This document shows positions 3,497 through 26,272 of a stretch of 48,444 nucleotides of DNA, in pieces. Position numbers and translations under genes: made by a program. The notes beneath the pieces were generated by a model that was not told where the DNA came from, did no database searches, and saw only the letters and a program-made list of their open reading frames with translations. How positions within the stretch are numbered: the stretch's first letter is position 1; the number at the start of each line of letters is the position of its first letter. This DNA is from Gammaproteobacteria bacterium. Its GTDB lineage: Bacteria > Pseudomonadota > Gammaproteobacteria > S012-40. The DNA is taken from NCBI GenBank assembly GCA_029884425.1, contig JAOUHV010000016.1, positions 1-48,444 of the forward strand, given 5' to 3'.

Positions 3497-3545
3497 ACTA
3501 CAGGCATTCGGCATGGCCCGAGATACGCATTTTGGGAGAGGTCCT

Positions 3546-3893
3546 GTGGGAGACGAACGTCGCGTTTATGATCGCCAGTTGATCAACAGACAGTTGATTC
3601 TTGGTGCATTTGTGCTTGCGCACGCTGGGCGTCAAATCAAGTTTGAAGCGCTGGAAGATGTTTCAATTTCAGGGGTGGGAATCATTATCTCCGAGCGTTT
3701 AAACAATGGGGATGGTGTTGAATTGGGTTATCAGCACGAAGAAAAAACCATTACCGTGCGAGGTAAGGTCGTGTGGGTGGTAGATGATAGTCTAGGCTTT
3801 CGTACAGGAATCTATTTTGATCCAATCAACGTTCAGGACAATGTCACTTTTTTTATGAATATGCGGGAGTATGTAGAAGATTTCGCCAGATAG
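3546..3893 (+). CDS. PilZ-domain protein, predicted c-di-GMP receptor
   Basis: The protein is a single PilZ domain of about 115 aa. Both ligand-binding signatures are visible: RxxxR near the N-terminus (in DERRVYDRQ) and D/NxSxxG as DVSISG, followed by the usual beta-barrel pattern ending in GFRTGIYF. I prefer the GTG at 3546 because GGGAGAGG lies just upstream (3534-3541). An in-frame ATG at 3513 would add 11 unremarkable residues and has only a weak site. There is no other domain, so it probably acts by binding a partner. It lies 249 bp before chemosensory operon 1, whose CheA carries c-di-GMP-binding-like motifs, and a functional link is possible. Confidence 0.85.
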   Translation: MGDERRVYDRQLINRQLILGAFVLAHAGRQIKFEALEDVSISGVGIIISERLNNGDGVELGYQHEEKTITVRGKVVWVVDDSLGFRTGIYFDPINVQDNVTFFMNMREYVEDFAR

Positions 3894-4079: not shown

Positions 4080-4142
4080 AGGTTCAGTATTTTTGGGGTT
4101 TATTGTCCAGTGAACCGCTATTCGAGCCAGGATGGGGTAAAA

Positions 4143-5297
4143 ATGACAGCCAAGCGGATGTCTATTTTGTCAGTGTTTGTGATATCGACTGCCGGATCGA
4201 TATCACTGCTGTTTCCCGTCATCGCCGATAACCTTGCCCTGTTACTGGTAACCAATACGCTGGCAATTACGGCTGCCATGGTGGTGTATGCAAAAATCGG
4301 CAACGTGGGACAGGGTTCGTCAACGGTTCCCGTTGTAATGGCAGAGGCGGCAGACAGCAGTGCAGAAAAAAGTCAGGAAGTGGTCAAGGAATTCCTTGAC
4401 CAGGTATTGCCCATACTGTGTCGCAATATTGAATCCGCACGCGATCTCACTGAAACATCTGTCAAGGATCTGTCTGAGTGCTTTTCAGTGATCCTGATGC
4501 GTATCAACCAGACGATGAGCGAATCCAGTGTTAAAAATTCGGGAGCAGATACGTTAACGGCGCTGCTGACATCCAGTCAGGACAGATTGGGAGTGGTGGT
4601 TGCTAATCTGGAAATGTTAACCAAAGCCAATGAACCCATTCTGGAAAAAGTAAGAACGTTGGTGGAGTACACCGATGAATTAAAAACAATGGCTGCCGAA
4701 GTGGGAGCTATTGCATCACAGACAAATTTGCTGGCGTTGAATGCCTCTATTGAGGCCGCCAGAGCAGGACAAGCGGGGCGTGGCTTTGCAGTGGTTGCCG
4801 GGGAAGTGCGTGAGTTGTCAATCATGTCCGGAAAAACCGGAAAACAGATTGGCGAGAAAGTTGAACGAATCAGTGAGTCAATTTCGTCAACGCTGGAAGT
4901 GGCGGAAAATTCAAACAGGGAAAAAGATAAGTTGGTTATTGGATCTGAAGGCGCTATTGAAATGGTTCTTGAGGAAATAAAAGAATCGTTTGATGCCATG
5001 AGTCAAACCAATGCCTTGCTGAAAGAGGAAAGCAAGGCAATGGCTAAAGATATATCAAATATTCTGGTTGATCTGCAGTTTCAGGATAGAACAAGTCAGG
5101 TTTTACGCCAGGTCATGGAAAGTATGGATTATGTTCGCGAAAGAGTTGTCAATAATGCTGACGCTATGAATAGCATCAGTGAAGAAGTGGAAAAAATTGC
5201 GAAAGGCTACACGACAGAAGAGCAGCGCAGAAATCACCATAGTTCGGTGGCAGTAAAGGCAGATTCTTCGAGTGATGGTGATATGGTGTTTTTTTAA
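4143..5297 (+). CDS. Methyl-accepting chemotaxis protein without a sensor domain, carrying a CheZ-like DxxxQ motif
   Basis: This 384-aa receptor has two closely spaced N-terminal membrane segments (about residues 7-25 and 31-49) with almost nothing between them, so no periplasmic sensor domain. A cytoplasmic coiled coil follows with the conserved hairpin tip ([18 protein letters not shown], about residues 195-215). After the return helix comes [10 protein letters not shown] with D315 and Q319, which resembles the FQDLTGQV active-site segment of CheZ (D143 and Q147 in E. coli). I chose the ATG at 4143 because GGGG lies 6-9 bases upstream; a GTG at 4110 is in frame but weaker. It is the first gene of chemosensory operon 1. 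Signals may be membrane or cytoplasmic, or the protein may act on CheY. Confidence 0.88.
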
Positions 5298-5311: not shown

Positions 5312-5677
5312 ATGGCAAAGATAATGGTTGTTGATGATTCGGATACTCTAAGGAAAGTAGTTAGTATGGCGCTAGTGTCGGCAGGTTATGAGGTTATCGA
5401 GGCATGCGATGGCAAGGATGCGTTGAGCAAGTTAACTGGTGAAAAAATTAATTTAATAATCAGTGATGTCAATATGCCTAACATGGATGGGATTACTTTT
5501 GTCAAGGAAGTGAAGAAGCTGGCTAACTACAAGTTTACCCCTATTATCATGCTGACTACCGAATCTGAGGAAGGTAAAAAACAGGAAGGTAAGGATGCGG
5601 GAGCAAAGGCTTGGGTGGTTAAACCATTCAAGCCAGATCAGATGTTGGACGCAGTGCAAAAACTAGTTTCTCCATAA
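5312..5677 (+). CDS. cheY: CheY-type response regulator (operon 1)
   Basis: This 121-aa single receiver domain has all active-site residues: acidic pair D8/D9, phospho-acceptor D52 (SDVNMPNMDG), T82 and K104 (VVKPF). It has no output domain, so it works by binding a partner such as the flagellar switch or another target. The start has a clear site (AGAGGAAATG). It lies 14 bp after the MCP gene and 14 bp before the STAS gene, and should receive phosphate from the CheA encoded at 5998. There is no cheZ in the operon, so dephosphorylation may rely on other factors, possibly the DxxxQ motif in the preceding MCP. Confidence 0.93.
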   Translation: MAKIMVVDDSDTLRKVVSMALVSAGYEVIEACDGKDALSKLTGEKINLIISDVNMPNMDGITFVKEVKKLANYKFTPIIMLTTESEEGKKQEGKDAGAKAWVVKPFKPDQMLDAVQKLVSP

Positions 5678-5691
5678 TCTCAGAGAATATT

Positions 5692-5964
5692 ATGGCAATT
5701 ATCATAGATCAAGAAATGACGATATATCATGCGGCGGATATATGGAAAATGATTATTGAGAGCATACGTCAGGTTAATAGTGGCGCTGTAAAAATGGATT
5801 TGTCGGCTGTGGGAGAAATGGATACCGCAGGGGCGCAATTGTTGTTGATGACAAAAAAGGTGTGCGAAGAAAATAGTTATAAATTTAGCATTGATGATGC
5901 CAGTGACCAGGTGTTGTCTAGTCTTATTTTGTTGGGATTAGAAGATTTGGTTAGTGACAGGTGA
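5692..5964 (+). CDS. STAS-domain protein, anti-sigma-antagonist-like (operon 1)
   Basis: This 90-aa protein consists of one STAS domain, with the typical central strand and helix MDLSAVGEMDTAGAQLLL near residues 42-60. In SpoIIAA-type proteins the DSSG segment carries the phosphorylated serine; here it reads DTAG, so the acceptor position is alanine and classical serine phosphorylation looks unlikely. It sits between cheY and cheA with short spacers. STAS genes are common in chemosensory operons, where their role is mostly undefined. Operon 2 has a separate STAS gene at 16341 that keeps a serine at this site. Confidence 0.85.
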   Translation: MAIIIDQEMTIYHAADIWKMIIESIRQVNSGAVKMDLSAVGEMDTAGAQLLLMTKKVCEENSYKFSIDDASDQVLSSLILLGLEDLVSDR

Positions 5965-5997: not shown

Positions 5998-8193
5998 ATG
6001 AACATGGATGAAGCCAAAGAAGCATTTTCTGTTGAGTGTAGTGAATTGCTGGAAGAAATGGAGTCGGCACTGCTGTGTTTGGAGGCAAGTCCGGATGACG
6101 ATAGTCAGATTAATGCCATATTTCGGGCGGCACATACCATTAAGGGAACGTCAGGGCTATTTGGTTATGATGATGTAGTTAAATTTACCCATGTTGTAGA
6201 AACATTTCTCGACAAGGTGCGCGACAAAAGAGTGGCTATTACCGATGATATTGTAGCTGTTCTGCTGAAGTGTCAGGATCATATGCGTCTGCTGGTTGAT
6301 CATGTGGTTGCCAATGATAATGCCAGTCTGAGTAGTGAAAATCAGCAGTCAGGTGATGAGCTGAGTCAGCAGTTAACTATGCTGGGTAAGGGTTGTGCTG
6401 TTGACGAAAAAGAAAAAGAGGATGAAGTTGTTTTGCCGGTAAATTTGATAGAAATCAATGAAGGCGAAAAGGTGTCTTCGCTTTGCTGGCATATATCAAT
6501 TCGCTTTGGAAGTAGTGTTTTGGTGAATGGAATGGATCCAATTTCATTCCTAAGATACTTGTCTCGTCTTGGTAAGGTGGTAAGCATATTTTCGGTGACG
6601 GATGCTATGCCGAAAACTGAGGAATTTAATCCAGAAAATTGCTGTTTGGGATTTGAAATTCTTCTGAAAGGTGAAACGAGTAAAAAAGAAATTGAGTCTG
6701 TATTTGAATTTGTAGTTGACGATTGTCAATTGCACATTGTTCCGCCGCAGGCTGTGTTGGCTCAATATGCTGATCTGATTAGGTCAATGCCAGAATCAGA
6801 CTTGCGCATTGGAGAAATTCTGGTTGCCAGTGGTGCCTTGACAGAAAAAGAGCTGGAAAGAGCGCTGACGATGCAAAAAGAAAAGTCAGATATTGGTAGT
6901 CAGTCACCTAAAATTGGTGACGTTTTGTTGGATAACCAGGATATAGATCCGGTGATTCTGGATGCGGCAATAGAAAAACAAAAAAGTGCGAAAGAGAAAG
7001 CCAGTGTTGCAAATCGATCTATTAGGGTTGATGCCGGGAAGCTTGGTGAACAGATAAATTTGGTTGGTGAGTTAGTTATTGCCGGTGCCAGGGCAAGGCT
7101 GTTGGCGCGTGGAACCGGTGATGAAGCTTTGATTGAATCAATTTTAGTGATGGAACGATTGGTTGAGCAAATTAGGGATAGCGCTCTTAGGTTGAGGATG
7201 GTTCAGATTGGCGAGAGCTTTAAAAAGTTCCAGCGTATTGTCAGGGATGTTAGCAGTGAGTTGCACAAGGATATTCGTTTGGAAATTAGCGGTGAAGAAA
7301 CCGAACTGGATAAAACTCTGGTAGAGAAAATAGGCGATCCTCTGATGCATCTTGTCAGGAACTCCATGGATCATGGGTTGGAAACGCCTGAGCAGCGTAT
7401 TGCTGAGGGCAAGGATAAGCAAGGTGTTGTGTCGCTGAATGCTTACCATGACTCGGGAAGTATTGTTATCGAAGTGAAGGATGATGGGCGAGGGCTTTCA
7501 AAGGAAAAGATTGTAGCCAAGGCATTGGAAAAGGGCTTGATTACAACGGCAGATGGATTGAGTGAAAGTGATATTTATCAGTTGATATTCGCGCCAGGGT
7601 TCTCCACTGCCGAACAGGTGACAAATTTGTCGGGACGTGGCGTTGGAATGGATGTCGTCAAGAAAAATATCCAGGCGGTTAGAGGCACCGTGGACATTGA
7701 TAGTATTCCAGGGAAAGGGACAACGGTATCAATCAGGTTGCCGCTGACGTTGGCGATCATTGATGGGTTTCTGGTTGATGTGGCTGGAACCTCGTACGTT
7801 ATTCCGCTGGATACTGTGGTGGAGTGTATTGAATTAACCCAACAGCATGATGATGCGTTTGTTGATCATCAATTCATAAAACTCAGAGGAAGTTTGCTGC
7901 CTTATATTCGCTTGAGAGAAACGCTTGGCGGTAATAGGGATAGAAGCCGGAGAGAGAATATTGTTGTTGTTCAGTGTGGTGATCTCAGAGCCGGACTGGT
8001 TGTGGATGATCTGATGGGTGAGTTTCAGACTGTTATCAAGCCCATGGGTAAGGTATTTGAAAAATTGCGTGGCGTAAGCGGGGCGACAATATTGGGAAGT
8101 GGTGAGGTGGCGATGATTTTAGATGTTACCTCCATCATTAGTCGCGTAAAAGGAATTACGGATAGCTATATTGCGCCAGGTCTGGTTGCTTGA
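5998..8193 (+). CDS. cheA: Chemotaxis histidine kinase CheA with MshEN-type tandem motifs (operon 1)
   Basis: This 731-aa kinase has an N-terminal Hpt/P1 domain with phospho-acceptor H46 (FRAAHTIKG). A P2-like domain lies at about 160-250. Two MshEN-like repeats follow at 270-293 (RIGEILVASGAL, LxxALxxQ) and 305-328 (KIGDVLL). Next come the dimerisation region and an HATPase domain with HLVRNSMDHG, DDGRGL and GRGVGMDVV, and then a C-terminal CheW-like domain from about residue 595. The start at 5998 follows GAGGTG. By family role it autophosphorylates and passes phosphate to CheY and CheB in response to receptors. The MshEN-like segment is absent from the operon-2 CheA and could make kinase activity respond to c-di-GMP. 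Confidence 0.95.
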   Translation: MNMDEAKEAFSVECSELLEEMESALLCLEASPDDDSQINAIFRAAHTIKGTSGLFGYDDVVKFTHVVETFLDKVRDKRVAITDDIVAVLLKCQDHMRLLVDHVVANDNASLSSENQQSGDELSQQLTMLGKGCAVDEKEKEDEVVLPVNLIEINEGEKVSSLCWHISIRFGSSVLVNGMDPISFLRYLSRLGKVVSIFSVTDAMPKTEEFNPENCCLGFEILLKGETSKKEIESVFEFVVDDCQLHIVPPQAVLAQYADLIRSMPESDLRIGEILVASGALTEKELERALTMQKEKSDIGSQSPKIGDVLLDNQDIDPVILDAAIEKQKSAKEKASVANRSIRVDAGKLGEQINLVGELVIAGARARLLARGTGDEALIESILVMERLVEQIRDSALRLRMVQIGESFKKFQRIVRDVSSELHKDIRLEISGEETELDKTLVEKIGDPLMHLVRNSMDHGLETPEQRIAEGKDKQGVVSLNAYHDSGSIVIEVKDDGRGLSKEKIVAKALEKGLITTADGLSESDIYQLIFAPGFSTAEQVTNLSGRGVGMDVVKKNIQAVRGTVDIDSIPGKGTTVSIRLPLTLAIIDGFLVDVAGTSYVIPLDTVVECIELTQQHDDAFVDHQFIKLRGSLLPYIRLRETLGGNRDRSRRENIVVVQCGDLRAGLVVDDLMGEFQTVIKPMGKVFEKLRGVSGATILGSGEVAMILDVTSIISRVKGITDSYIAPGLVA

Positions 8194-8227
8194 TGTGAGC
8201 ATTGTAATTACTAAGAGGTGCGACGGA

Positions 8228-8998
8228 ATGCGGTTAAGGAACTGTTTTTATATTGGTTTGTTTATGATGTTTTTTCCAGTGATTTTGCTCGCGCAAACTG
8301 CGTCTCATGGCGGCAAAGGTAATAAAGCGCATTGGTCATATGATGGTCAAGAGCGGCCAGAAAACTGGGGTAGTTTGTCGGACGACTATCATTTGTGTGC
8401 CAAGGGTGAGAATCAGTCACCTGTCAATATTGTTGATGCTGCAGAGCATGAGCTAGATGAATTAAAGATGACGTACGATGACGGCGCATCATCGGTTGTC
8501 AATAACGGTCATACCATTCAGGTGAATGCATCTGGCGGTTCGTTAATGGTTGCGGGTAAAAAGTATCAGTTGTTGCAGTACCACTTCCATACTCCAAGCG
8601 AGCACAAGATAGACAGTAAATCCGCGCCGATGGAAGTTCACTTTGTACACAAATCCGAAGACGGCCAGTTGGCTGTTGTTGGTGTGATGATGCGCGAAGG
8701 ACGAGATAGCAGTGGTTTGGATAGAGTTTGGCGAAATATTCCCCGTTCAGAAGGGAAAAGTGTAGGTGTTGAGGGGGATGGAATAATGCCGTCTCATTTG
8801 ATGCCAAAAAATAAGGAATATTTTTTTTACAACGGATCGTTGACAACGCCTCCATGCAGTGAAGGAGTCAGATGGTTTGTTTTGAAAGATGGTATTGAAG
8901 TGTCAGCGTCACAAATTGATCGTTTTAAACAGTTGTTTGCCAAGAATTCTCGGCCAATACAGCCAGTCAATGAACGTCATGTACGTATGATGCAGTAA
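8228..8998 (+). CDS. Alpha-class carbonic anhydrase, exported, inside chemosensory operon 1
   Basis: This 256-aa protein has a signal peptide (RNCFYIGLFMMFFPVILLAQ) and an alpha-carbonic anhydrase domain beginning HWSYDGQERPENWG. The three zinc histidines are visible: H119 and H121 in YHFHTPSEH, and H138 in EVHFVH. The C57 and TPPCSEG cysteines would form the usual disulfide. It should hydrate CO2 to bicarbonate in the periplasm. The ATG at 8228 follows AGAGGTG and begins the signal peptide; a longer frame from 8171 overlaps cheA and is not preferred. It lies 34 bp after cheA and 15 bp before an MCP gene on the same strand, so it is almost certainly co-transcribed with chemosensory genes. Confidence 0.95.
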   Translation: MRLRNCFYIGLFMMFFPVILLAQTASHGGKGNKAHWSYDGQERPENWGSLSDDYHLCAKGENQSPVNIVDAAEHELDELKMTYDDGASSVVNNGHTIQVNASGGSLMVAGKKYQLLQYHFHTPSEHKIDSKSAPMEVHFVHKSEDGQLAVVGVMMREGRDSSGLDRVWRNIPRSEGKSVGVEGDGIMPSHLMPKNKEYFFYNGSLTTPPCSEGVRWFVLKDGIEVSASQIDRFKQLFAKNSRPIQPVNERHVRMMQ

Positions 8999-16728: not shown

Positions 16729-17091
16729 ATGGCAAAGATTCTTGCTGTAGATGACTCAGCTTCCATGAGACAAATGGTGGCTTTCACCCTCAAAGGAGCT
16801 GGGCATGAAGTGGTCGAAGCAGGCGATGGTGTGCAGGCGTTGGCCGTGGCCAAAAATGGAAAAGTTGATCTGGTGCTAACCGACGTCAATATGCCCAACA
16901 TGGATGGCATCACCCTGATCAAAGAATTGCGTGCGTTGCCCGCATACAAATTTGTACCGATCTTGACGCTGACCACGGAATCCGGCCAGGACAAAAAAAT
17001 GGAAGGAAAAACGGCAGGTGCGACCGGATGGATAGTTAAGCCGTTCAGTCCAGACCAATTATTGGCGACGATAAAAAAAGTGCTGGGGTAA
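16729..17091 (+). CDS. cheY: CheY-type response regulator (operon 2)
   Basis: This 120-aa single receiver domain has D8/D9, phospho-acceptor D52 (TDVNMPNMDG), T82 and K104 (IVKPF). It is very similar to the operon-1 CheY. The start follows AGGAGATGGAGA. It ends 6 bp before cheA, its expected phosphodonor. The gene order STAS-cheY-cheA-cheW resembles the beginning of the Pseudomonas aeruginosa che2 cluster (cheY2-cheA2), in which the output is not simple flagellar control. Confidence 0.93.
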   Translation: MAKILAVDDSASMRQMVAFTLKGAGHEVVEAGDGVQALAVAKNGKVDLVLTDVNMPNMDGITLIKELRALPAYKFVPILTLTTESGQDKKMEGKTAGATGWIVKPFSPDQLLATIKKVLG

Positions 17092-17097
17092 TCGGCC

Positions 17098-19299
17098 ATG
17101 ACGGTGGATATGTCACAGTTCTACCAGACCTTCTTCGAAGAGAGCTTCGAAGGTCTGGATAACATGGAAGCAAGTTTGCTTACGCTGCAGGACGGCGAAG
17201 CCGATCTTGAAACCGTCAACACCATATTCCGTGCGGCACATTCCATCAAGGGTGGAGCTGCAACGTTTGGATTTGATGCGGTGTCTTCATTCACTCACGT
17301 GATGGAAACGCTGCTTGATCAGGTGCGCGGCGGCGAGCGTATGGTAACGCAGCCCATGATTGACCTGCTTTTAAAATCAGGTGATGCACTACGCGATATG
17401 TTGGCAGCGACGCGTGATGGAACTGAGTATGACGTTGCCAACGTCAAAGGCATAAAATCTCAACTCGAAGCCATGCTGCATGGCGGTCATGAAGCGGCGA
17501 ATACTACGCCGGCAAGTGCGTTGGTTGCGGCACCCGAAGCAGCAGAAGCGCCATCTATGATAGAGGGCTGGCATATCAAATGTCATCCCCATGAACACAT
17601 GATGCGTACCGGTAATGATCCGGTTCGCTTGTTTCGCGAAATTTCCGTGCTTGGTGAATTGACTGTTGAACTGGATGACAGCGGTTTGCCTCCGCTGGCA
17701 GAAATTGATCCGGAAAATTCCTATCTAAGCTGGAATTTGACCCTGATGGGCGATGTTGATCGCTCGCAGATCAATGAAGTGTTCGAATGGGTTGATGATG
17801 ATTGTGACATTGGTTTGACTGTTATTGGCTCGGAAGAAAAATCCGCACCGATGACACCTGTAGCTGAAGTTGCATCGGTAGCTGAGGTTGTGTCAGAAGA
17901 AGCGCCGAATACGGTTGCTCCAGCGCCGGTTGCATCGGCACCCCCCGCGCCTGTGGTTTCACCCTCGGCACCGGTTGTAGCACCAGCTGTGGCTGCCGCA
18001 GTAGACAGTGCTGCAGCCAAAGTTGCTGAAAAGCGCAAAGTAGCTGCTGCCTCCGGCGATACCGGCTCCATTCGCGTTAGCACCGATAAAATTGATGCAT
18101 TGATCAATATGGTGGGTGAGCTGGTTATCACTCAGTCGATGTTGAGTCAGTGGGGTGATGCGGATAATGATCAAATCAAAGACACAGAAAAATTACGCGA
18201 TGGCCTGGCCCAATTAGAAAGAAATACGCGGGAGCTGCAGGAAAGCGTGATGCGTATCCGGATGCTGCCGATCAGCTTTGTTTTCCAGCGTTTTCCCCGC
18301 ATGGTGCGTGATCTTGCGCAAAAACTGGGCAAGGAAGTCGAACTTAAATTATCCGGTGAGCAAACTGAATTGGATAAAACCGTCATGGAGAAAATCGGTG
18401 ATCCGATGGTGCACCTAGTGCGCAATTCCATGGATCACGGTATTGAGCGGCCTGACGTACGCAAGGCGGCTGGTAAAGATCCGGTCGGTACTGTGCACCT
18501 CGATGCCTATCATCAGGGCGGTAATATCGTGATCGAAATTACCGATGATGGTGCGGGTTTAAATCGGCAACGAATCAAACAGAAAGCAATTGAGCGTGGA
18601 GTGATCGCTGAAACCGATGAATTGAGCGATGAACGAATTCATGAGCTGATTTTTGAACCAGGATTTTCAACTGCCGCCGAAGTCAGTGATGTCTCAGGGC
18701 GCGGCGTGGGCATGGATGTGGTCCGACGCAATATTCGTGAACTGGGCGGAAGCATCGAAATCCATTCCAAAGATGGTGAAGGAAGCAAATTCACGATTCG
18801 CTTGCCATTGACGTTGGCTATTCTGGACGGGCAGTTGGTTCGTGTTGGTAACGATACCTACATTATTCCACTAGTGTCGATTATCGAATCTCTGCAAGTT
18901 AGTCGAGATCGGGTGAATGCAATTGCTGCCAAATCAGAATTGTACAAATTGCGTGATGAATATATCCCGGTGGTGAGATTGTACGAAGTGTTTGGGCGGA
19001 AATCTGAGCACACGGATTTATCCAAAGGCTTGTTAGTTGTTGTTGAAGGTGATGGTCAACGAGTTGGCGTGTTTGTTGATGATCTGTTGGGGCAACAACA
19101 GGTGGTTATTAAGAGTTTGGAAACCAATTTTAGGCGTGTTGATGGCATCTCCGGGGCAACCATTCTGGGTGATGGAACGGTTGCGCTGATTCTGGATGTG
19201 GGAGGACTGATCAGTCTTTCCAAGGATAAAAATGTCAGTAAGCGTCGTGCCGATGGTGGCAATGCCAATAATCAAGACGCGCAACAGGCTGTGGCGTAA
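17098..19299 (+). CDS. cheA: Chemotaxis histidine kinase CheA (operon 2)
   Basis: This 733-aa kinase has a P1/Hpt domain with phospho-acceptor H48 (FRAAHSIKGG) and a P2-like domain at about 158-245 (PHEHMMRTGNDPVRLFREI). A long Ala/Pro/Val-rich flexible linker runs to about residue 310, followed by dimerisation, HATPase (HLVRNSMDHG, DDGAGL, GRGVGMDVV) and C-terminal CheW-like domains. The linker takes the place of the MshEN-like repeats found in the operon-1 CheA. The start is 6 bp after cheY. It should be controlled by the soluble globin/PAS receptor encoded downstream and phosphorylate CheY, CheB and perhaps exchange with the Hpt protein at the operon end. Confidence 0.95.
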   Translation: MTVDMSQFYQTFFEESFEGLDNMEASLLTLQDGEADLETVNTIFRAAHSIKGGAATFGFDAVSSFTHVMETLLDQVRGGERMVTQPMIDLLLKSGDALRDMLAATRDGTEYDVANVKGIKSQLEAMLHGGHEAANTTPASALVAAPEAAEAPSMIEGWHIKCHPHEHMMRTGNDPVRLFREISVLGELTVELDDSGLPPLAEIDPENSYLSWNLTLMGDVDRSQINEVFEWVDDDCDIGLTVIGSEEKSAPMTPVAEVASVAEVVSEEAPNTVAPAPVASAPPAPVVSPSAPVVAPAVAAAVDSAAAKVAEKRKVAAASGDTGSIRVSTDKIDALINMVGELVITQSMLSQWGDADNDQIKDTEKLRDGLAQLERNTRELQESVMRIRMLPISFVFQRFPRMVRDLAQKLGKEVELKLSGEQTELDKTVMEKIGDPMVHLVRNSMDHGIERPDVRKAAGKDPVGTVHLDAYHQGGNIVIEITDDGAGLNRQRIKQKAIERGVIAETDELSDERIHELIFEPGFSTAAEVSDVSGRGVGMDVVRRNIRELGGSIEIHSKDGEGSKFTIRLPLTLAILDGQLVRVGNDTYIIPLVSIIESLQVSRDRVNAIAAKSELYKLRDEYIPVVRLYEVFGRKSEHTDLSKGLLVVVEGDGQRVGVFVDDLLGQQQVVIKSLETNFRRVDGISGATILGDGTVALILDVGGLISLSKDKNVSKRRADGGNANNQDAQQAVA

Positions 19300-19314
19300 C
19301 GTGGGAGAGCATCA

Positions 19315-19800
19315 ATGAATGCGGTATCACAGGATATAGAGTTAGAACTGCAAGGTGACTCCAATGGGGAGCAATATCTAACCTTCATTATGGCCAATGA
19401 AGAATACGGCGTAGATATTTTGCGGGTTCAGGAAATTCGTGGTTGGGATCATGTGACACCTATTCCGAATACACCATCATACATCAAGGGTGTAATAAAT
19501 TTGCGCGGTTCTATCGTTCCCATTATCGAACTGCGCTCTCGCTTTGGTATTGGCAGTCAGGAATATGGTCCAACTACGGTTGTTATCGTGCTTCGTGTAA
19601 TCACGGATGCTGGTGAGCGAATTATGGGAATAGTGGTTGATGCTGTTTCCGATGTGTACAACATTTCAGCCGAAGACATGAAGGATCCACCTGACTTTGG
19701 ATCGATGGTCAGTATTGATTATGTGAAAGGGTTGACTTCAGTGGATGAGAAAATGGTCATTATCCTGGATATTGATCGCTTGATGAATTGCACAGGCTAA
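19315..19800 (+). CDS. cheW: CheW-type coupling protein (operon 2)
   Basis: This 161-aa protein is a single CheW domain (QYLTFIMANEEYGVDILRVQEIRGW, then GVINLRGSIVPIIELRSRFG), typical in length and motifs. The start follows GGGAGAG. It lies between cheA and parA with spacers of 15 and 25 bp. It should link the cytoplasmic receptor to the operon-2 CheA. It is less like the two operon-1 CheW copies than those are in overall layout, having a shorter N-terminus. Confidence 0.94.
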   Translation: MNAVSQDIELELQGDSNGEQYLTFIMANEEYGVDILRVQEIRGWDHVTPIPNTPSYIKGVINLRGSIVPIIELRSRFGIGSQEYGPTTVVIVLRVITDAGERIMGIVVDAVSDVYNISAEDMKDPPDFGSMVSIDYVKGLTSVDEKMVIILDIDRLMNCTG

Positions 19801-19825
19801 ACGCGTTGGTGTTGGGGCGAAAAAC

Positions 19826-20614
19826 ATGAGCAGAGTGATCGCAGTTATGAATCAAAAGGGCGGGGTTGGTAAGACAACCACCTCGTTGAATCTTGCTCAT
19901 GGTTTGGCAAAGCTTGGCAAACGTGTACTGCTGCTGGATATTGATCCTCAAGCACATTTGAGTGCCAGCTTTGGTATGCATGGTCTGGGTATGAGCGGCA
20001 TGGATGCAGTCATGCTGGATGATGAAAAACTCGATGATGTGTGCATGAATGTTCGCGACGGATTGAGTTTGGTGCCTGCTGGCGATCGTCTTGGAGAATT
20101 GGAGTTCGTCAGTGCCGGTGGAGCTTCACGCGGATATCGTCTTGGTCGTGCGATTATGGCCAGTGAACAATCCTGGGATTTTATTATTATAGACTGTCCA
20201 CCTTCGACCGGGCTGTTGGGAATGAATTGTTTGTTGGCCGCTGAGGAATTGCTGATTCCGGTATCCAGTGATTATCTAGCGCTGCATGGTTTGTCTCGAC
20301 TGGTCAGTATTATAAATAACATTGAAGAGCGCTTGAATCGGAATACGCGCAAATGGCTGGTGGTGACGCGCTTCCAGCAGCGCCGTCGATTGGCTCGCAA
20401 TGTTCTTGAAAAATTATTGGAGTATTTCCCTGGTCAAGTATTGAAAACTGTCATTCGTGAAAGTGTTTCGTTGGCGGAAAGCCCAGGGTTTGGAAAAACA
20501 ATATTCGATTATCGAAAATCAAGTCACGGGGCAGAGGATTATTTGTCTCTGGCAAGAAATATCATTGATGAGCAGGTGATGCATGATCACAAAGTCGAAC
20601 ACGAAACGGCATGA
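19826..20614 (+). CDS. ParA-family ATPase in a chemosensory operon (array-positioning type)
   Basis: This 262-aa protein has a deviant Walker A motif (NQKGGVGKTTTSLNLA), Walker A' LLLDIDPQAHLS and Walker B IIIDCPPSTG. There is no N-terminal HTH, so it is the short ParA type that binds DNA non-specifically. Known chemotaxis relatives are ParC of Vibrio and PpfA of Rhodobacter sphaeroides, which place receptor arrays in the cell. It sits between cheW and a soluble receptor, which favours the PpfA-like role of partitioning a cytoplasmic array. Its last 32 bases overlap a small ORF that has its own ribosome site. No ParB gene is present. Confidence 0.92.
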   Translation: MSRVIAVMNQKGGVGKTTTSLNLAHGLAKLGKRVLLLDIDPQAHLSASFGMHGLGMSGMDAVMLDDEKLDDVCMNVRDGLSLVPAGDRLGELEFVSAGGASRGYRLGRAIMASEQSWDFIIIDCPPSTGLLGMNCLLAAEELLIPVSSDYLALHGLSRLVSIINNIEERLNRNTRKWLVVTRFQQRRRLARNVLEKLLEYFPGQVLKTVIRESVSLAESPGFGKTIFDYRKSSHGAEDYLSLARNIIDEQVMHDHKVEHETA

Positions 20615-20735
20615 AGTGACTGCAGCGCCGACAAACAAAGAGCTGTTGCTGGATGCTCGCATAAAGGGATCGAAAAAGAAACGATCAATGGAAATATTGC
20701 AGCGAGTTTTTGCAGATATGGCCTGGTTTGGCTAG
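20583..20735 (+). CDS. Small basic protein (50 aa) between parA and the soluble receptor; candidate ParA partner
   Basis: The ORF starts ATG ATC ACA AAG and ends TTT GGC TAG. AGGTG (20574-20578) lies 4 bases before the start. It overlaps the 3' end of parA by 32 bp and ends 19 bp before the receptor gene. The product is rich in Lys/Arg (MITKSNTKRHEV, then KGSKKKRSMEIL) and ends RVFADMAWFG. The start MITKSN resembles the receptor start MTKKSN. The tail AWFG and the KKKRSM-EIL stretch resemble the receptor's AWMAG and [11 protein letters not shown]. Basic N-termini that stimulate ParA ATPases are known for ParB proteins and for TlpT of Rhodobacter. I do not recognise the family. It could be a ParA activator, a relic of a duplicated receptor N-terminus, or chance. 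Confidence 0.6.
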   Translation: MITKSNTKRHEVTAAPTNKELLLDARIKGSKKKRSMEILQRVFADMAWFG

Positions 20736-20754
20736 GGCGGGAGGATAACTGGAT

Positions 20755-23688
20755 ATGACAAAAAAATCAAACTCGGCAATTGGCTATGACCCGTTGGCGT
20801 GGATGGCGGGCGACGATGCAGAGCCGGCAAGCAAGCCAAAAAAATCTGCATCCGGTAAAGGAAAAGGTAACAGTATGAATATTGATATTTTGCGCAGTAG
20901 CTTTGCAGCACTGGCCCCTCAGGGGGAGGAATTGACAAGGCGGTTTTATGCGGAATTATTTGAGCGTTTTCCCCAGGTTCGTCCAATGTTTACGGGGGAC
21001 GTCAAAGACCAGGAGCGTAAATTACTGGCTGCGCTGCAGACAGTTATTGCGTCATTGGATAAGCCGGCGGCACTAAAGAAAACGTTGGCAGAACTTGGTC
21101 GGCGGCACCAGAACTATGGTGCAGTTGCCGGGCATTATCAAGCAGTAGCTGAGACCCTACTTGATGTGATGGCTGATTTGGCAGGGTCACTTTGGACAAA
21201 TGAAGTGGCGTCAGCCTGGAAGCAAGCGCTGACCGTCGTCGCACAAGCGATGCTAGATGCGTATGAGGAGCAAGAGGACAAGAGTATGGTGGCTAACAGA
21301 AAATCGATGGAAAGTGAATTGAGTAATGATATGCACGATGAACTGGTGAGAATGAAGTCGGCGGTCAATGGTGCCATGACGGCGATCATGATGGTGGATC
21401 GTGACTTCAATATCACTTATGTGAATCAATCCACGGTTGAGTTGTTGAAGCCGCATGAGGATATATTGCGTAAAGCCTTTCCAGGATTTAGTGCCGAGAA
21501 TTTGATGGGGAAAAACATTGATGTTTTCCACAAAAATCCCCGTCGCCAGCGTCAGTTGCTTTCTAATCCAGCGTCATTGCCTTACTCGACAGATATTGAA
21601 ATTGGACCGCTGAAGTTCCGTCTCAACGTCACAGCCATCATGGATAATAGTGGAAATTACATTGGAAACACGCTGGAGTGGTCTGATGTTACCTCTGTGC
21701 GTCAAAAAGAAGTTGAAGTCGCGCGTTTGCAGTCTGCGGTAGACAGTGCTACTACAAACCTGATGATGTGTGATTCCAATCTGAATATCACCTACGCCAA
21801 TCCTGCGGTAGTGGCGATGTTACGCGCACGTCAAACCGAGTTGCGCAAAGTATGGCCAAGTTTGAATGTGGATAATCTGATTGGCCAAAATATTGACCAG
21901 TTCCACAAAAATCCCGCGCATCAGCGCTCATTGTTGTCCGATAAAAATCGTTTGCCTGCCAGAGCTGAAATCAAGGTGGGTGATTTGGAATTTGAAGTCA
22001 ACGCCACCTTTATTGCCGGGCCAAACGGTGAGTACATGGGCAACATGGTGGAATGGAAAGACTTAACCGATTCCAATAAGCAAAAACGCGAAGTTGCGCG
22101 CTTGCAATCTGCTGTTGATGGCGCTGCATCCAATCTGATGATTTGTGATGCCGATCTGAGAATAACCTATGTTAATCCCTCAGTGGTAAAAATGCTGTCC
22201 AAACGTGAAACAGAATTGCGTAAGGTCTGGCCATCGCTAGATACACGTAATTTGATCGGTCAGAACATTGACCAGTTCCACAGAAATCCAGCGCATCAGC
22301 GCAGTCTATTGGCAGACAGATCGCGTTTGCCTGCCAAAGCAGAAATTACCGTGGGCGATCTTGAGTTTGAAGTCAATGCAACCATGATCACCGGCCCCAA
22401 TGGTGAGTACATGGGGAACATGGTGGAATGGAAAGATATCACCGAGCAGAAAGATGCCGAGCGTCAGATTGAACGTCTGATCGAAGCTGCATCTGCCGGT
22501 AATCTGGATCAACGTATTAACTCGGATAATTACAGCGGGTTTATCCGTAACCTGGGTGAAGGTGTTAACCAGTTGATTGATGCGGTGGTCAAGCCGATTC
22601 GCGAAGGAACCCGAGTTGTTAAAGCGATGTCTGAGGGTGATCTGCGTGAAAACATGACCGGTGAGTTTGAAGGTGAATTTGCCGTGTTACGCGATGCAAT
22701 CAATCTGACTGTCGATAATCTGCGTCGCATGGTTGGTCAGATCAAGAGTTCAACGGTCAATATTTCAACCGCATCATCTGAGATTGCTCAGGGTAACGCG
22801 GATTTGAGTCAGCGTACCGAAGAACAGGCATCGTCGCTGGAAGAAACTGCTTCAAGTATGGAAGAGTTGACAGCCACCGTACGGCAGAATGCTGACAATG
22901 CTCGCCAAGCCAATCAGTTGGCGTCCGGTGCGAGTGAGCAGGCGCAGAAAGGTGGCGATGTCGTGCAGCGTGCTGTGACTGCAATGAGTGAGATCAATAC
23001 CAGTAGCAAGAAGATTGCTGACATTATCGGTGTAATCGACGAGATCGCTTTCCAAACCAACTTGCTGGCTTTGAACGCTGCGGTAGAAGCTGCGCGTGCC
23101 GGTGAGCAAGGTCGTGGTTTTGCGGTTGTAGCGGGCGAAGTTCGTAATCTGGCACAACGAAGCGCTGCGGCTGCCAAAGAAATCAAGACACTGATTCAGG
23201 ACAGCGTGGAAAAAGTAGAGGATGGAACCAAACTGGTGGATCAGTCCGGGGCAACGCTACAGGAAATCGTGTCTGCGGTTAAACGCGTCAGTGACATTAT
23301 TGCCGAAATTGCGTCTGCCAGCCAGGAACAGTCTGCCGGTATTGAACAGGTCAATAAAGCCGTAACTCAAATGGACGAAGTTACCCAGCAGAACGCGGCG
23401 TTGGTTGAAGAAGCTGCAGCGGCGAGCGAATCCATGGATGAGCAAGCCAGATCACTGACCGACATGATGTCCTTCTTCAAGATAGACGAGGATGGCGAGA
23501 TTAGTATGGCGCCAGTGGCACCTCGTGCGGCAAGCAAGCCCGTAGCAGCAGCAAGACCTGCGACCAAGGCAGCAGCGCCCGCATCAGCTCGTCCAGCAGC
23601 CAGACCTGCGGCTGCAGCAGCGAAGCCTGCGACACGTCGCGCACCGCCAGCCTCGGCCGGTGGTGATGAAGAGTGGGAAGAGTTTTAA
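20755..23688 (+). CDS. Soluble globin + three Aer2-type PAS domains + HAMP-like + MCP signalling domain receptor
   Basis: This 977-aa receptor has no membrane segment. The order is: a lysine-rich N-terminus with YDPLAWM; a globin domain (about 41-172, proximal His likely H127 in [11 protein letters not shown]); PAS1 (about 200-315); PAS2 (325-440); PAS3 (450-565). Two HAMP-like segments (565-660) and the MCP domain (tip [24 protein letters not shown]) follow, then an Ala/Pro-rich tether ending EWEEF. Each PAS has FHxNP and a Trp in (E)WxD. These match the haem-ligand His234 and the O2-contacting Trp283 of Pseudomonas Aer2: H259/W309, H384/W434 and H509/W559. I infer an oxygen or other gas sensor with up to four haems. 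The start follows GGGAGGA. Confidence 0.93.
21727..22446 (+). repeat. Tandem PAS2/PAS3 coding repeat, period about 375 bp
   Basis: PAS2 and PAS3 of the soluble receptor are near copies with a 125-residue period: VARLQSAVD at residue 322 recurs at 447, and GQNIDQFH and [12 protein letters not shown] recur at the same offset. PAS1 (about 21352-21700) is a more distant third copy. This suggests recent internal duplication of the last two domains. Confidence 0.85.
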
Positions 23689-23703
23689 TTGACAGGAAAT
23701 GAT

Positions 23704-24546
23704 ATGAGCGACGTTCAGGAGAGGGATTTCGTGTTTGATGACAAAGACTTCGAAGAAATTCGGGTCTTTGTCAAGCAACACACCGGTATTTCTCTGAGTG
23801 ATGCAAAGCGCAACATGGTATACGGCCGCCTTTCGAGGCGGCTTCGTCATTTAAACATTAAGAGTTTTGCGGATTATATGGATCTGGTCAAACAGCCAGG
23901 TTCACCTGAGGTCGGCGACTTTATAAATGCAATGACGACGAACCTCACATCGTTTTTTCGTGAGAATCATCATTTTGAATACGTACGAAAAACAGTTATT
24001 CCTGAAGTCATGAAGGCCAATATGGCGACGCGTAAAATTCGCATATGGTCTGCGGGTTGTTCAACCGGTGAGGAGCCGTATTCGCTAGCGATGACACTGG
24101 CGTCTTCGATTCCGTCAATCGACACCTGGGATGTGAAGATTCTGGCGACGGATTTGGATACCAATGTTTTGGCTCATGCAGAACGTGGAGTTTACGACAT
24201 TGATCGGGTTGAAAGCGTGCCTGATGAGTATCGTCGACGCTGGTTGATGAAGGGGAAAGGATCAAATAGCGGTAGCGTTTGTATGTCGAGAAAAATTAAA
24301 GACATGATTACGTTTCGCAAGCTGAATCTGATGATGGATTGGCCAATGAGGGGCCCGTTTGATTTTATCTTTTGCCGGAATGTTGTGATCTATTTTGACA
24401 AGGAAACACAGAAAAAGCTTTTTGATCGTTACGCAGATATCTTGATTCCACATGGTCATGTTTTTCTTGGGCATTCAGAATCTCTTTTTAAAGTGTCAAC
24501 TCGCTTTGAGCTGGTGGGCAATACCATTTACCGCAAAAAGGATTAA
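23704..24546 (+). CDS. cheR: Chemoreceptor methyltransferase CheR, pentapeptide-dependent type (operon 2)
   Basis: This 280-aa protein has the CheR N-terminal domain ([22 protein letters not shown]) and SAM-binding catalytic domain (IWSAGCSTGEEPYSLAM, FDFIFCRNVVIYFD, LGHSESLF). The beta-subdomain loop is MKGKGSNSG, containing the G-x-G insertion known from CheRs that dock on a receptor C-terminal pentapeptide (E. coli loop RGTGPHEG). This fits the EWEEF tail of the receptor encoded immediately upstream. I chose the ATG at 23704 after AGGAAA; an in-frame TTG at 23689 is less likely. Confidence 0.95.
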   Translation: MSDVQERDFVFDDKDFEEIRVFVKQHTGISLSDAKRNMVYGRLSRRLRHLNIKSFADYMDLVKQPGSPEVGDFINAMTTNLTSFFRENHHFEYVRKTVIPEVMKANMATRKIRIWSAGCSTGEEPYSLAMTLASSIPSIDTWDVKILATDLDTNVLAHAERGVYDIDRVESVPDEYRRRWLMKGKGSNSGSVCMSRKIKDMITFRKLNLMMDWPMRGPFDFIFCRNVVIYFDKETQKKLFDRYADILIPHGHVFLGHSESLFKVSTRFELVGNTIYRKKD

Positions 24547-24548
24547 TC

Positions 24549-25175
24549 ATGACCATTGTGCCGCCAAGCATGTATCCACCCTTGAAGGGATTCGAACACA
24601 TTAATCGCTATTGGGACAAGGCGAGAGGAATATATGGAGCTAAGATATTGCCTGGTCAATATTATGTGACCTTGCACGATGAATTAATCACTACCGTGCT
24701 TGGCTCATGTATTTCGGCATGTATTCGGGATAGAAAACTGGGTATTGGCGGGATGAATCATTTTATGTTGCCGTCCACGGATGATCAGGGAATGTTGGGG
24801 GCTGCCAGTGCGGCTGAGCGTTATGGCAATTTTGCGATGGAACATTTGATTAACCATATTTTGAAAAACGGGGGTAGGCGCGAGAATTTGGAAGTTAAAA
24901 TTTTTGGTGGAGGAAAGATCCTGGCCTCCATGACCGACGTTGGTCGGAAAAATATTAACTTTGTGAAAACGTACATTCAGGCTGAGGGTATGTCGTTGGT
25001 TTCGGAGGATGTTGGTGACATTTTTCCGCGAAAAGTTGTTTTTTTTCCATCGACTGGGAAAGCATTGGTTAAACGGTTGAGATCATTGCACAACGATACG
25101 GTATACGCACGCGAACGCGAATACCTCGATGGCATAGAGAAAACCGGAACTTCTGGTGATGTTGAGTTGTTTTGA
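24549..25175 (+). CDS. cheD: Chemoreceptor glutamine deamidase CheD
   Basis: This 208-aa protein matches CheD with catalytic Cys54 ([10 protein letters not shown]) and His71 (GGMNHFMLP), then KIFGGG and the NINFVKTYI region. It deamidates specific receptor glutamines and may be regulated by other chemotaxis proteins. It starts 3 bp after cheR and ends just before cheB, the same cheR-cheD-cheB order as in the P. aeruginosa che2 cluster. Operon 1 has no cheD. The N-terminal about 30 residues ([15 protein letters not shown]) precede the core domain. Confidence 0.95.
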
Positions 25176-25177
25176 TT

Positions 25178-26272
25178 ATGAGCAAAATACGCGTGTTGAT
25201 AGTTGATGATTCTGCGTTGGTGCGGCAAGTATTGACGCAGGTATTGCAATCCGATTCCGATATCGAAGTGGTTGGGACTGCTTCGGATCCTTTTATTGCT
25301 CGGGATAAAATCAAGCAATTGAAGCCCGATGTGTTGACGCTGGACGTGGAAATGCCGCGCATGGATGGCATCACGTTTTTGCGTAACTTAATGCGCTTGC
25401 ATCCGATGCCGGTGGTGATGATTTCCTCGTTGACCGAAAAAGGTGCCCAGATCACGCTGGATGCACTGGAAATTGGCGCGGTGGATTTCATGGCCAAGCC
25501 CAAAGAGGATTTGAAGTCCCAAATGCAGGAGTATTCGGCCACCATTATCGAGAAAGTGAAAATGGCGGCGAAGGCCAAGGTTCGTGTGCGGGTGGATGAG
25601 GCCGGGACGGCGAAACCGGCGGGAACGGCAGTGCCGCCCAAATTGGAATCGGATGCTATTTTGGCTAAAACTGCACCTCCACCCAGATCGATTGATTTGG
25701 GTGAACTGATTGCGATTGGTGCGTCGACGGGGGGTACGGAGGCCGTCCGCGATGTGCTGACACTGCTGCCGCCGGATTTGCCGGGTATTGTGATTACCCA
25801 GCATATTCCTGAAGCGTTCAGCGGGCCGTTTGCGGCGCGCCTGGATCGTTCTTGTGCACTGAGGGTAAAAGAAGCCCAGCACGGTGATGAAATTCTGCCG
25901 GGGCACGCGTACGTCGCGCCGGGCAGTCATCACTTGTTGGTGGAGCGCAAGGGCAAGCGTTATTTCTGTGTGCTCAACGATGGGCCTCGGGTGAATCGTC
26001 ACAAACCCTCGGTGGATGTACTGTTCCGCTCGGTGTGTCAGGCGGCGGGCGCCAAGGCCGTGGGCGTGATTTTGACCGGTATGGGTGACGATGGCGCACG
26101 TGGTCTGAAAGAAATGCGTGACGCGGGTTCATTCACCATTGCGCAGGATGAAAACACCAGCGTGGTTTGGGGTATGCCTGGTGAGGCGGTTAAATTGGGC
26201 GCGGCAGAAGTGGTTAAACCGTTGCGAGCTGTGTCAACGGAACTGATTCGTTATTTCAAAAAATCAGGGTAA
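25178..26272 (+). CDS. cheB: Chemoreceptor methylesterase/deamidase CheB (operon 2)
   Basis: This 364-aa protein has a receiver domain (D10/D11, phospho-acceptor D56 in [11 protein letters not shown]) and a methylesterase domain with [10 protein letters not shown] (Ser), TQHIPEAF (His) and TGMGDDGA (Asp). I chose the ATG at 25178, 2 bp after the cheD stop; a TTG at 25172 is in frame. With CheR and CheD it provides adaptation for the soluble receptor. It is followed after 29 bp by an Hpt gene that may belong to the same transcript. Confidence 0.95.

Follow-up and report, generated by a model that had tools for sequence, protein, structure and literature searches.

The second messenger c-di-GMP tunes motility via PilZ proteins, motor brakes and transcription. 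One domain that binds it is the MshEN_N domain of V. cholerae MshE (5HTL), which consists of two 24-residue motifs in a four-helix bundle. As described in the accessible part of the original report, residue 3 of either motif (Gly11 and Gly40) forms backbone hydrogen bonds to guanine and its substitution abolishes binding, Gln32 and Gln61 contact the ribose and the phosphate, Gly18 and Gly47 only form turns, and helix alpha4 bears Leu54 and Leu58 of the second guanine site (PMC5013675). The same source describes XpsE as a protein that keeps the fold and does not bind, with the substitutions G11V, G40L and Q61V (PMC5013675). In PilF of Thermus thermophilus, a pilus and DNA-uptake ATPase, the GSPII-B and GSPII-C domains are both c-di-GMP binders according to the text available to us, GSPII-B, whose motifs begin with Lys and Leu at position 1, at 6 nM, and GSPII-C, in which Pro occupies position 1 of motif II, about as tightly as MshE. 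The GSPII-A domain of the same protein keeps the fold, does not bind and has A41, H33 and R62 at the corresponding sites; in a rebuilt GSPII-A, Ile for Leu costs about 2.4-fold (PMC11731258, PMC12002112).

The fusion of such a domain to CheA is already known in print from one line. In the part of Wang et al. (2016; PMC5013675) that was accessible, a single sentence states that MshEN is found with “chemotaxis protein kinase CheA,” and neither a clade nor the position, the spacer or the connector is described. A survey that covers thousands of CheA sequences (Berry et al., 2023; PMC10782961) gives P2, receiver and CheC/CheX domains as auxiliary domains in its accessible text, which does not list MshEN among them and does not mention MshE, T2SS or c-di-GMP. 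We found no experimental study of c-di-GMP binding by CheA, or of a CheA-MshEN protein, in the accessible literature that combines MshEN or c-di-GMP with CheA or chemotaxis. Judged by these sources, the position of the module, its conservation across a clade, the variable spacer, the fixed connector and a sister class with a one-residue spacer, which are presented here, appear to be undescribed so far.

The window analyzed here is a stretch of 48,444 nucleotides (contig JAOUHV010000016.1) that encodes a CheA in which Hpt, H-kinase_dim, HATPase_c and CheW were each identified above the Pfam cut-off. P1, P3, P4 and P5 of the canonical five-domain CheA are likewise all found in this protein, and P2 gave a weak match to PF09078 below cut-off. 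It differs from the canonical kinase in having an additional module in the linker between P2 and P3. The features of the locus, all on the forward strand, are as follows.

3513..3893, + strand, PilZ-domain protein upstream of the operon (PF07238, 38.2 bits)
4110..5297, + strand, MCP-type protein whose C-terminal stretch is CheZ-like, encoded by the gene that opens the conserved operon (Pfam; motif in 33/33 relatives)
5312..5677, + strand, CheY (Pfam; neighbor order)
5692..5964, + strand, STAS-domain protein (Pfam; neighbor order)
5998..8193, + strand, CheA histidine kinase, 731 aa (open reading frame; four Pfam domains above cut-off)
6019..6282, + strand, P1 / Hpt, residues 8–95 (Pfam)
6763..6786, + strand, short conserved helix ahead of the module, residues 256–263 (AlphaFold2 model; conserved in alignment)
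6805..6876, + strand, MshEN-like motif 1, residues 270–293 (NF053729; shuffles)
6877..6909, + strand, spacer of 11 residues, 294–304 (sequence; class A spacers 5–23)
6910..6981, + strand, MshEN-like motif 2, residues 305–328, divergent at positions 1, 10 and 11 (alignments, shuffles, class counts)
6982..7020, + strand, 13-residue connector to P3, residues 329–341, mostly an extension of alpha4 (42/51 class A rows; models)
7015..7191, + strand, P3 / H-kinase_dim, residues 340–398 (Pfam; P3 helices match CheA 3ja6_C)
7336..7749, + strand, P4 / HATPase_c, residues 447–584 (Pfam)
7765..8145, + strand, P5 / CheW-like, residues 590–716 (Pfam)

Motif 1 (RIGEILVASGALTEKELERALTMQ; CheA residues 270–293, nucleotides 6805–6876) and motif 2 (KIGDVLLDNQDIDPVILDAAIEKQ; residues 305–328, nucleotides 6910–6981) share with the MshE domain Gly3, Leu or Ile at positions 2, 17 and 21, and Gln24. 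The putative contact residues are R270, I271, G272, L286, L290 and Q293 in motif 1, and K305, I306, G307, L321, I325 and Q328 in motif 2. The first 24-mer is clear, and the second is divergent, with Lys for Arg at position 1 (Arg38 in MshE), Gln for Gly at position 10 (Gly47 in MshE, and also Gly in motif II of GSPII-C) and Asp for a hydrophobic residue at position 11. The spacer between the motifs is 11 residues long, as compared to five in the 53-residue MshEN_N domain of MshE, and the module is followed directly by P3 instead of an MshEN_C subdomain. Unlike in PilF, which has no kinase, the module lies inside the linker of one.

We compared the linker to family profiles, using CheA sequences classified as class A (two motifs, spacer of at least five residues) or class B (two motifs, spacer of exactly one residue). 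NF053729 (c-di-GMP_motif), the NCBIfam model of the MshE-related c-di-GMP motif with a curated cut-off of 38 bits, gave 37.9 bits (E 1.1e-9) on the whole CheA, just below the cut-off, and 45.2 bits on the 89-residue linker alone, which is above it; the alignment covers only profile positions 1–27 of 53, that is, motif 1. Across the whole genome from which the window was taken, this model matched two places, the CheA of the window, there listed over the cut-off, and a 569-codon frame in which all 53 profile positions were aligned. The other two CheA matches in this genome had no NF053729 match, and all 35 class A linkers scanned were matched. A search with the Pfam profile T2SSE_N (PF05157), as had been proposed in the sequence-only reading, returned no score for the CheA of the window, and T2SSE_N was absent from the Pfam families matched by the 35 class A linkers at E ≤ 0.1, of which DUF4388 had weak matches in 22.

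Each motif was also scored against 10,000 shuffles with four profiles, all built without the window sequence. Motif 1 outscored every shuffle with each profile. For motif 2, none of the 10,000 shuffles was as good with the class A motif-2 profile and one was with the class B profile, but 177 scored equal or better with the class A motif-1 profile and 249 with a profile of seven known PilF, PilB and MshE motifs. Since the class A motif-2 and class B profiles single it out and the profile of known binders does so poorly, motif 2 is convincing through its relatives and not alone; as far as sequence comparison goes, it is a family-supported and not a stand-alone identification. A search of the PDB with the class A linker profile recovered 14 sequences at E ≤ 1, all of which were PilF, PilB or MshE, with the best values for 6f8l (2.4e-19) and 5htl (1.2e-6). 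Domain 3 of 6f8l is GSPII-C, the closest solved sequence to the class A linkers, and has a spacer of seven residues in the linker-profile alignment. With the class B profile, MshE was recovered at 2.7e-9.

An AlphaFold2 model of residues 255–343, built from an alignment of 34 rows, has a pLDDT of 86 and consists of helices at 256–263, 271–278, 283–298, 306–312 and 318–340, of which the last four are predicted to form a bundle as in MshEN_N, MshE-like structures having already been seen by AlphaFold2. In comparisons of this model with VIA-align, MshE with c-di-GMP scored the highest (Z 9.3, 1.9 Å over 59 residues), followed by c-di-GMP-bound PilF GSPII-B (Z 7.3–9.1; crystal structures 8.8–9.1) and the PilB-PilZ complex of X. 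citri (Z 7.3–7.4); GSPII-A reached 3.8, and no unrelated fold scored above 3.7. Foldseek also ranked GSPII-B and MshE at the top, at E-values of only 0.5–1.8 and with nothing at E ≤ 0.001; it was VIA-align on the Foldseek candidates that set the MshEN structures apart. In a second model that includes P3, the bundle is kept and P3 matches CheA P3 in 3ja6_C (Z 8.2), with a pTM of 0.56 and low confidence at the join of module and P3 (pLDDT 68).

These results bear on whether a helical linker could merely resemble the motif by chance. Motif 2 taken alone is weak against the known binders and Pfam gives no score, but the E-value of motif 1 with NF053729, the matches of 35/35 relatives to the same model, the restriction of PDB hits of the linker profile to MshEN proteins and the agreement of the predicted fold refute this explanation, which we consider hardly credible. 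It is near certain that the CheA of the window carries an MshEN homolog. The sequence-only reading had placed a 24-residue MshEN pattern at residues 270–293 and a second, weaker copy with Lys for Arg and Gln for Gly at 305–328; the first was borne out by NF053729 and the shuffles, the substitutions in the second were confirmed and the copy is backed by the family profiles, and the homology itself agrees with the profiles, the predicted fold and the conservation of ligand-contact residues in class A. Its start of motif 1 at position 6808 was one codon late, the motif beginning at 6805.

Relatives of this CheA were collected from genomes near that of the window, from GTDB genomes, from plasmids and, with a profile search, from 274 genomes of the class, 128 of which had some match at E ≤ 0.001. 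The scores in this search show a gap: 21 genomes contain 27 places with E ≤ 4.3e-19, and the next place follows at 3.7e-11. From this strong set of 27 places, 21 loci were fetched and all 21 are CheA; among the remaining 9 of the 30 fetched loci, the weaker L137 is a CheA and the other eight had no CheA match. Removal of identical sequences (L120, L134) and repeat loci (L002, L052, L119, L123, L130) left 127 distinct CheA rows, including the truncated L073 and the partial L091, L101, L014 and L015. These were classified, by a score to which Gly3 and Gln24 contribute positively, into 51 class A rows, 18 class B rows, 4 rows with a single recognizable motif and 54 with none.

In a quick IQ-TREE phylogeny of the P3–P5 core of the 127 rows, all 51 class A rows fall within one branch of 67 rows (SH-aLRT 100), which also includes 12 rows with no motif and 4 with a single motif. 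We therefore consider the module to be a trait of this lineage that was lost several times. A complete module is not needed for the kinase to work, as it is missing from 16 of the 67 rows, among them one truncated contig and one partial frame. Class A CheAs are mostly from Pseudomonadota, with a few from Spirochaetota and Myxococcota, and the class B rows are located in two separate other parts of the tree, with 10 and 8 rows.

The class B rows (L069, L071, L072, L074–L078, L080–L083, L085, L086, L088–L090, L101) belong mostly to Nitrospirota, and some to Myxococcota, Spirochaetota and Fibrobacterota. Gly10 is usually retained in both of their motifs, and the connectors are mostly 11, 15 or 18–19 residues long. 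The one-residue spacer may allow the MshEN geometry, or may require that domains be swapped between the subunits of the CheA dimer.

Where the flanking sequence suffices, most class A loci have the gene order MCP-CheY-STAS-CheA-MCP-CheW. The module could dock a protein, in that the bundle would bind a PilZ-domain protein, the STAS protein or a polar landmark, with or without c-di-GMP, in the manner of PilB from X. citri, whose MshEN-like N-domain binds PilZ. The fold match to that complex, the PilZ gene upstream of the operon in the window and the STAS gene that immediately precedes cheA at most class A loci are in line with this. However, conservation in the module centers on the residues that contact c-di-GMP in MshE, the class A rows L040 and L121 have no STAS match nearby, and the adjacency of PilZ is not conserved, so we regard docking as rather improbable. 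Among the PilZ matches listed (to about E 2e-6), none lies within 5 kb of CheA in the 20 genomes with a class A-type CheA, the nearest being at about 10 kb (G003) and 18 kb (G228), and the weak test of a single-sequence phmmer search returned no PilZ near the CheA of relatives. The PilZ gene that the sequence-only reading had cited in favor of c-di-GMP is real, but its adjacency was dropped as support. The genome has a background of c-di-GMP signaling, with 28 GGDEF and 7 PilZ matches.

Two other neighbors of cheA were noted. The CheZ-like C-terminal stretch of the MCP-like protein at 4110–5297 scored 24.2 bits, below cut-off, and a QFQDxxxQ-type motif is present in 33/33 scored relatives of this protein (2/33 with a stricter expression). 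We take this motif to resemble the catalytic Asp-Gln pair of CheZ, and the protein is possibly a receptor-phosphatase hybrid. Between cheA and the next MCP gene lies 8171–8998, the product of which matched no NCBIfam family and reads as a carbonic anhydrase of the alpha type, probably with a signal peptide; the relative L004 has the same neighbor.

Conservation within class A differs strongly between positions, in rows selected by the score that rewards Gly3 and Gln24. Gly3 is present in 51/51 rows in motif 1 and 50/51 in motif 2, the sole exception being L011, which has Glu and a connector of 45 residues, and Gln24 is present in 50/51 and 51/51. By comparison, the turn residue Gly10 of motif 2 is free to vary (14/51) and Arg1 is poorly kept (29/51 in motif 1, 6/51 in motif 2), Pro being the most frequent residue at position 1 of motif 2 (27/51). 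The Gly3 and Gln24 columns are also invariant or at least 90% conserved in free alignments, the rows of which were chosen by the same score; one of these, alignment A4, holds 47 of the 51 class A rows, with L011, L033, L041 and L048 left out. All six rows with a motif-1 relic and no motif 2 (L008, L137, L049, L053, L058, L063; about four independent cases by the tree) lack Gly3 or Gln24 of motif 1, which is supportive only, as relics may decay freely.

Spacers in class A range between 5 and 23 residues, with three rows at 5, and in 42/51 rows 13 residues separate Gln24 of motif 2 from the start of P3. A five-residue spacer is not strictly required, because the binder GSPII-C has seven, and since GSPII-C and GSPII-B bind despite their deviations, a long spacer and a missing Arg are no strong argument against binding. 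An initial worry that the spacer of the window is longer than in MshE was correct as to the 11 residues and is largely answered by the range in class A and by GSPII-C.

The same data can be read in terms of a degenerate module, in which the MshEN fold would be a rigid spacer or helical leader for P3, or would position P1/P2, with no binding of c-di-GMP, for which XpsE and PilF GSPII-A are precedents. This would account for the deviations of the window motif 2 at positions 1, 10 and 11, for the lack of conservation of Arg1 and for the 13-residue connector, which is the most length-constrained element and outlasts the bundle: in L065 and L137 the bundle is lost and “KQ” with the 13-residue lead into P3 is retained. 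Lys327 and Gln328 may thus be kept for packing against P3 and not for a ligand, and the two rows suggest that the helix leading into P3 has a structural role independent of the ligand. On the other hand, the residues that the known non-binders lose, Gly3 in both motifs and Gln24 in motif 1, are nearly invariant, Gly10 of motif 2, a structural residue, varies freely, and GSPII-C, in the accessible text, is a binder that has Pro as the first residue of motif II. We therefore consider a degenerate module unlikely, if less so than docking.

Because Gly3 and Gln24 are nearly invariant, Gly10 of motif 2 is free and non-binders lose such residues, we favor a ligand site, and because the connector is 13 residues in 42/51 rows while the spacer varies from 5 to 23, a collar on P3 is the simplest reading. 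The homology, the predicted fold, the clade-wide conservation of contact residues and the fixed connector were computed, and from them we infer binding, the sign of the effect and the coupling to the kinase. The resulting explanation, that residues 270–328 form an MshEN_N-type c-di-GMP bundle in CheA and a ligand-responsive collar that acts on P3, has in our estimate a probability of roughly 0.55. Binding of c-di-GMP by the module is by itself fairly probable, and direct control of kinase activity by c-di-GMP a little less so. The idea of a c-di-GMP-responsive CheA in the sequence-only reading is thus partly supported, by the family profiles, the fold prediction and the contact residues in 51 class A CheAs.

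If the module is a collar on P3, it would have been built into the P2–P3 linker of one CheA lineage. Each 24-mer would be a half-site, with the backbone amides of Gly3 and Leu or Ile at positions 2, 17 and 21 around the guanine and Gln24 directed to the ribose and phosphate, and a single c-di-GMP would clamp both hairpins together. Helix alpha4, the last of the bundle, is predicted to extend along the fixed 13 residues almost to the dimerization helices of P3. Clamping and release could then shift alpha4 and the P1/P2 arm relative to P3, and the shift of the arm would alter the access of P1 to the ATP site of P4 or phosphotransfer to CheY.

Since the module is kept across one CheA branch, the messenger may act on chemosensory signaling at the core enzyme. 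A receptor within CheA would, if confirmed, put the messenger of motile and sessile life at the central enzyme of the chemosensory array. It is conceivable, at somewhat short of even odds, that the CheA branch with the full module in 51/67 rows and the separate Nitrospirota-type CheAs with a one-residue spacer both carry in-kinase c-di-GMP receptors adjoining P3, with the messenger setting the gain of the chemoreceptor array directly at CheA and not via the motor or PilZ adaptors. The receptor may be an ancient part of CheA that the better-studied kinases have lost.

CheAs without the module were also observed in other contexts. In the che operon of a Xanthomonas sacchari plasmid (L034, 17811–19055), which has a module-less CheA, an EAL-domain response regulator is annotated. 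A second chemosensory cluster in the window, at 16729–26272, encodes CheY, a module-less CheA, CheW, a ParA-like ATPase, CheR, CheD and CheB, along with a globin-PAS-HAMP-MCP protein of 977 aa.
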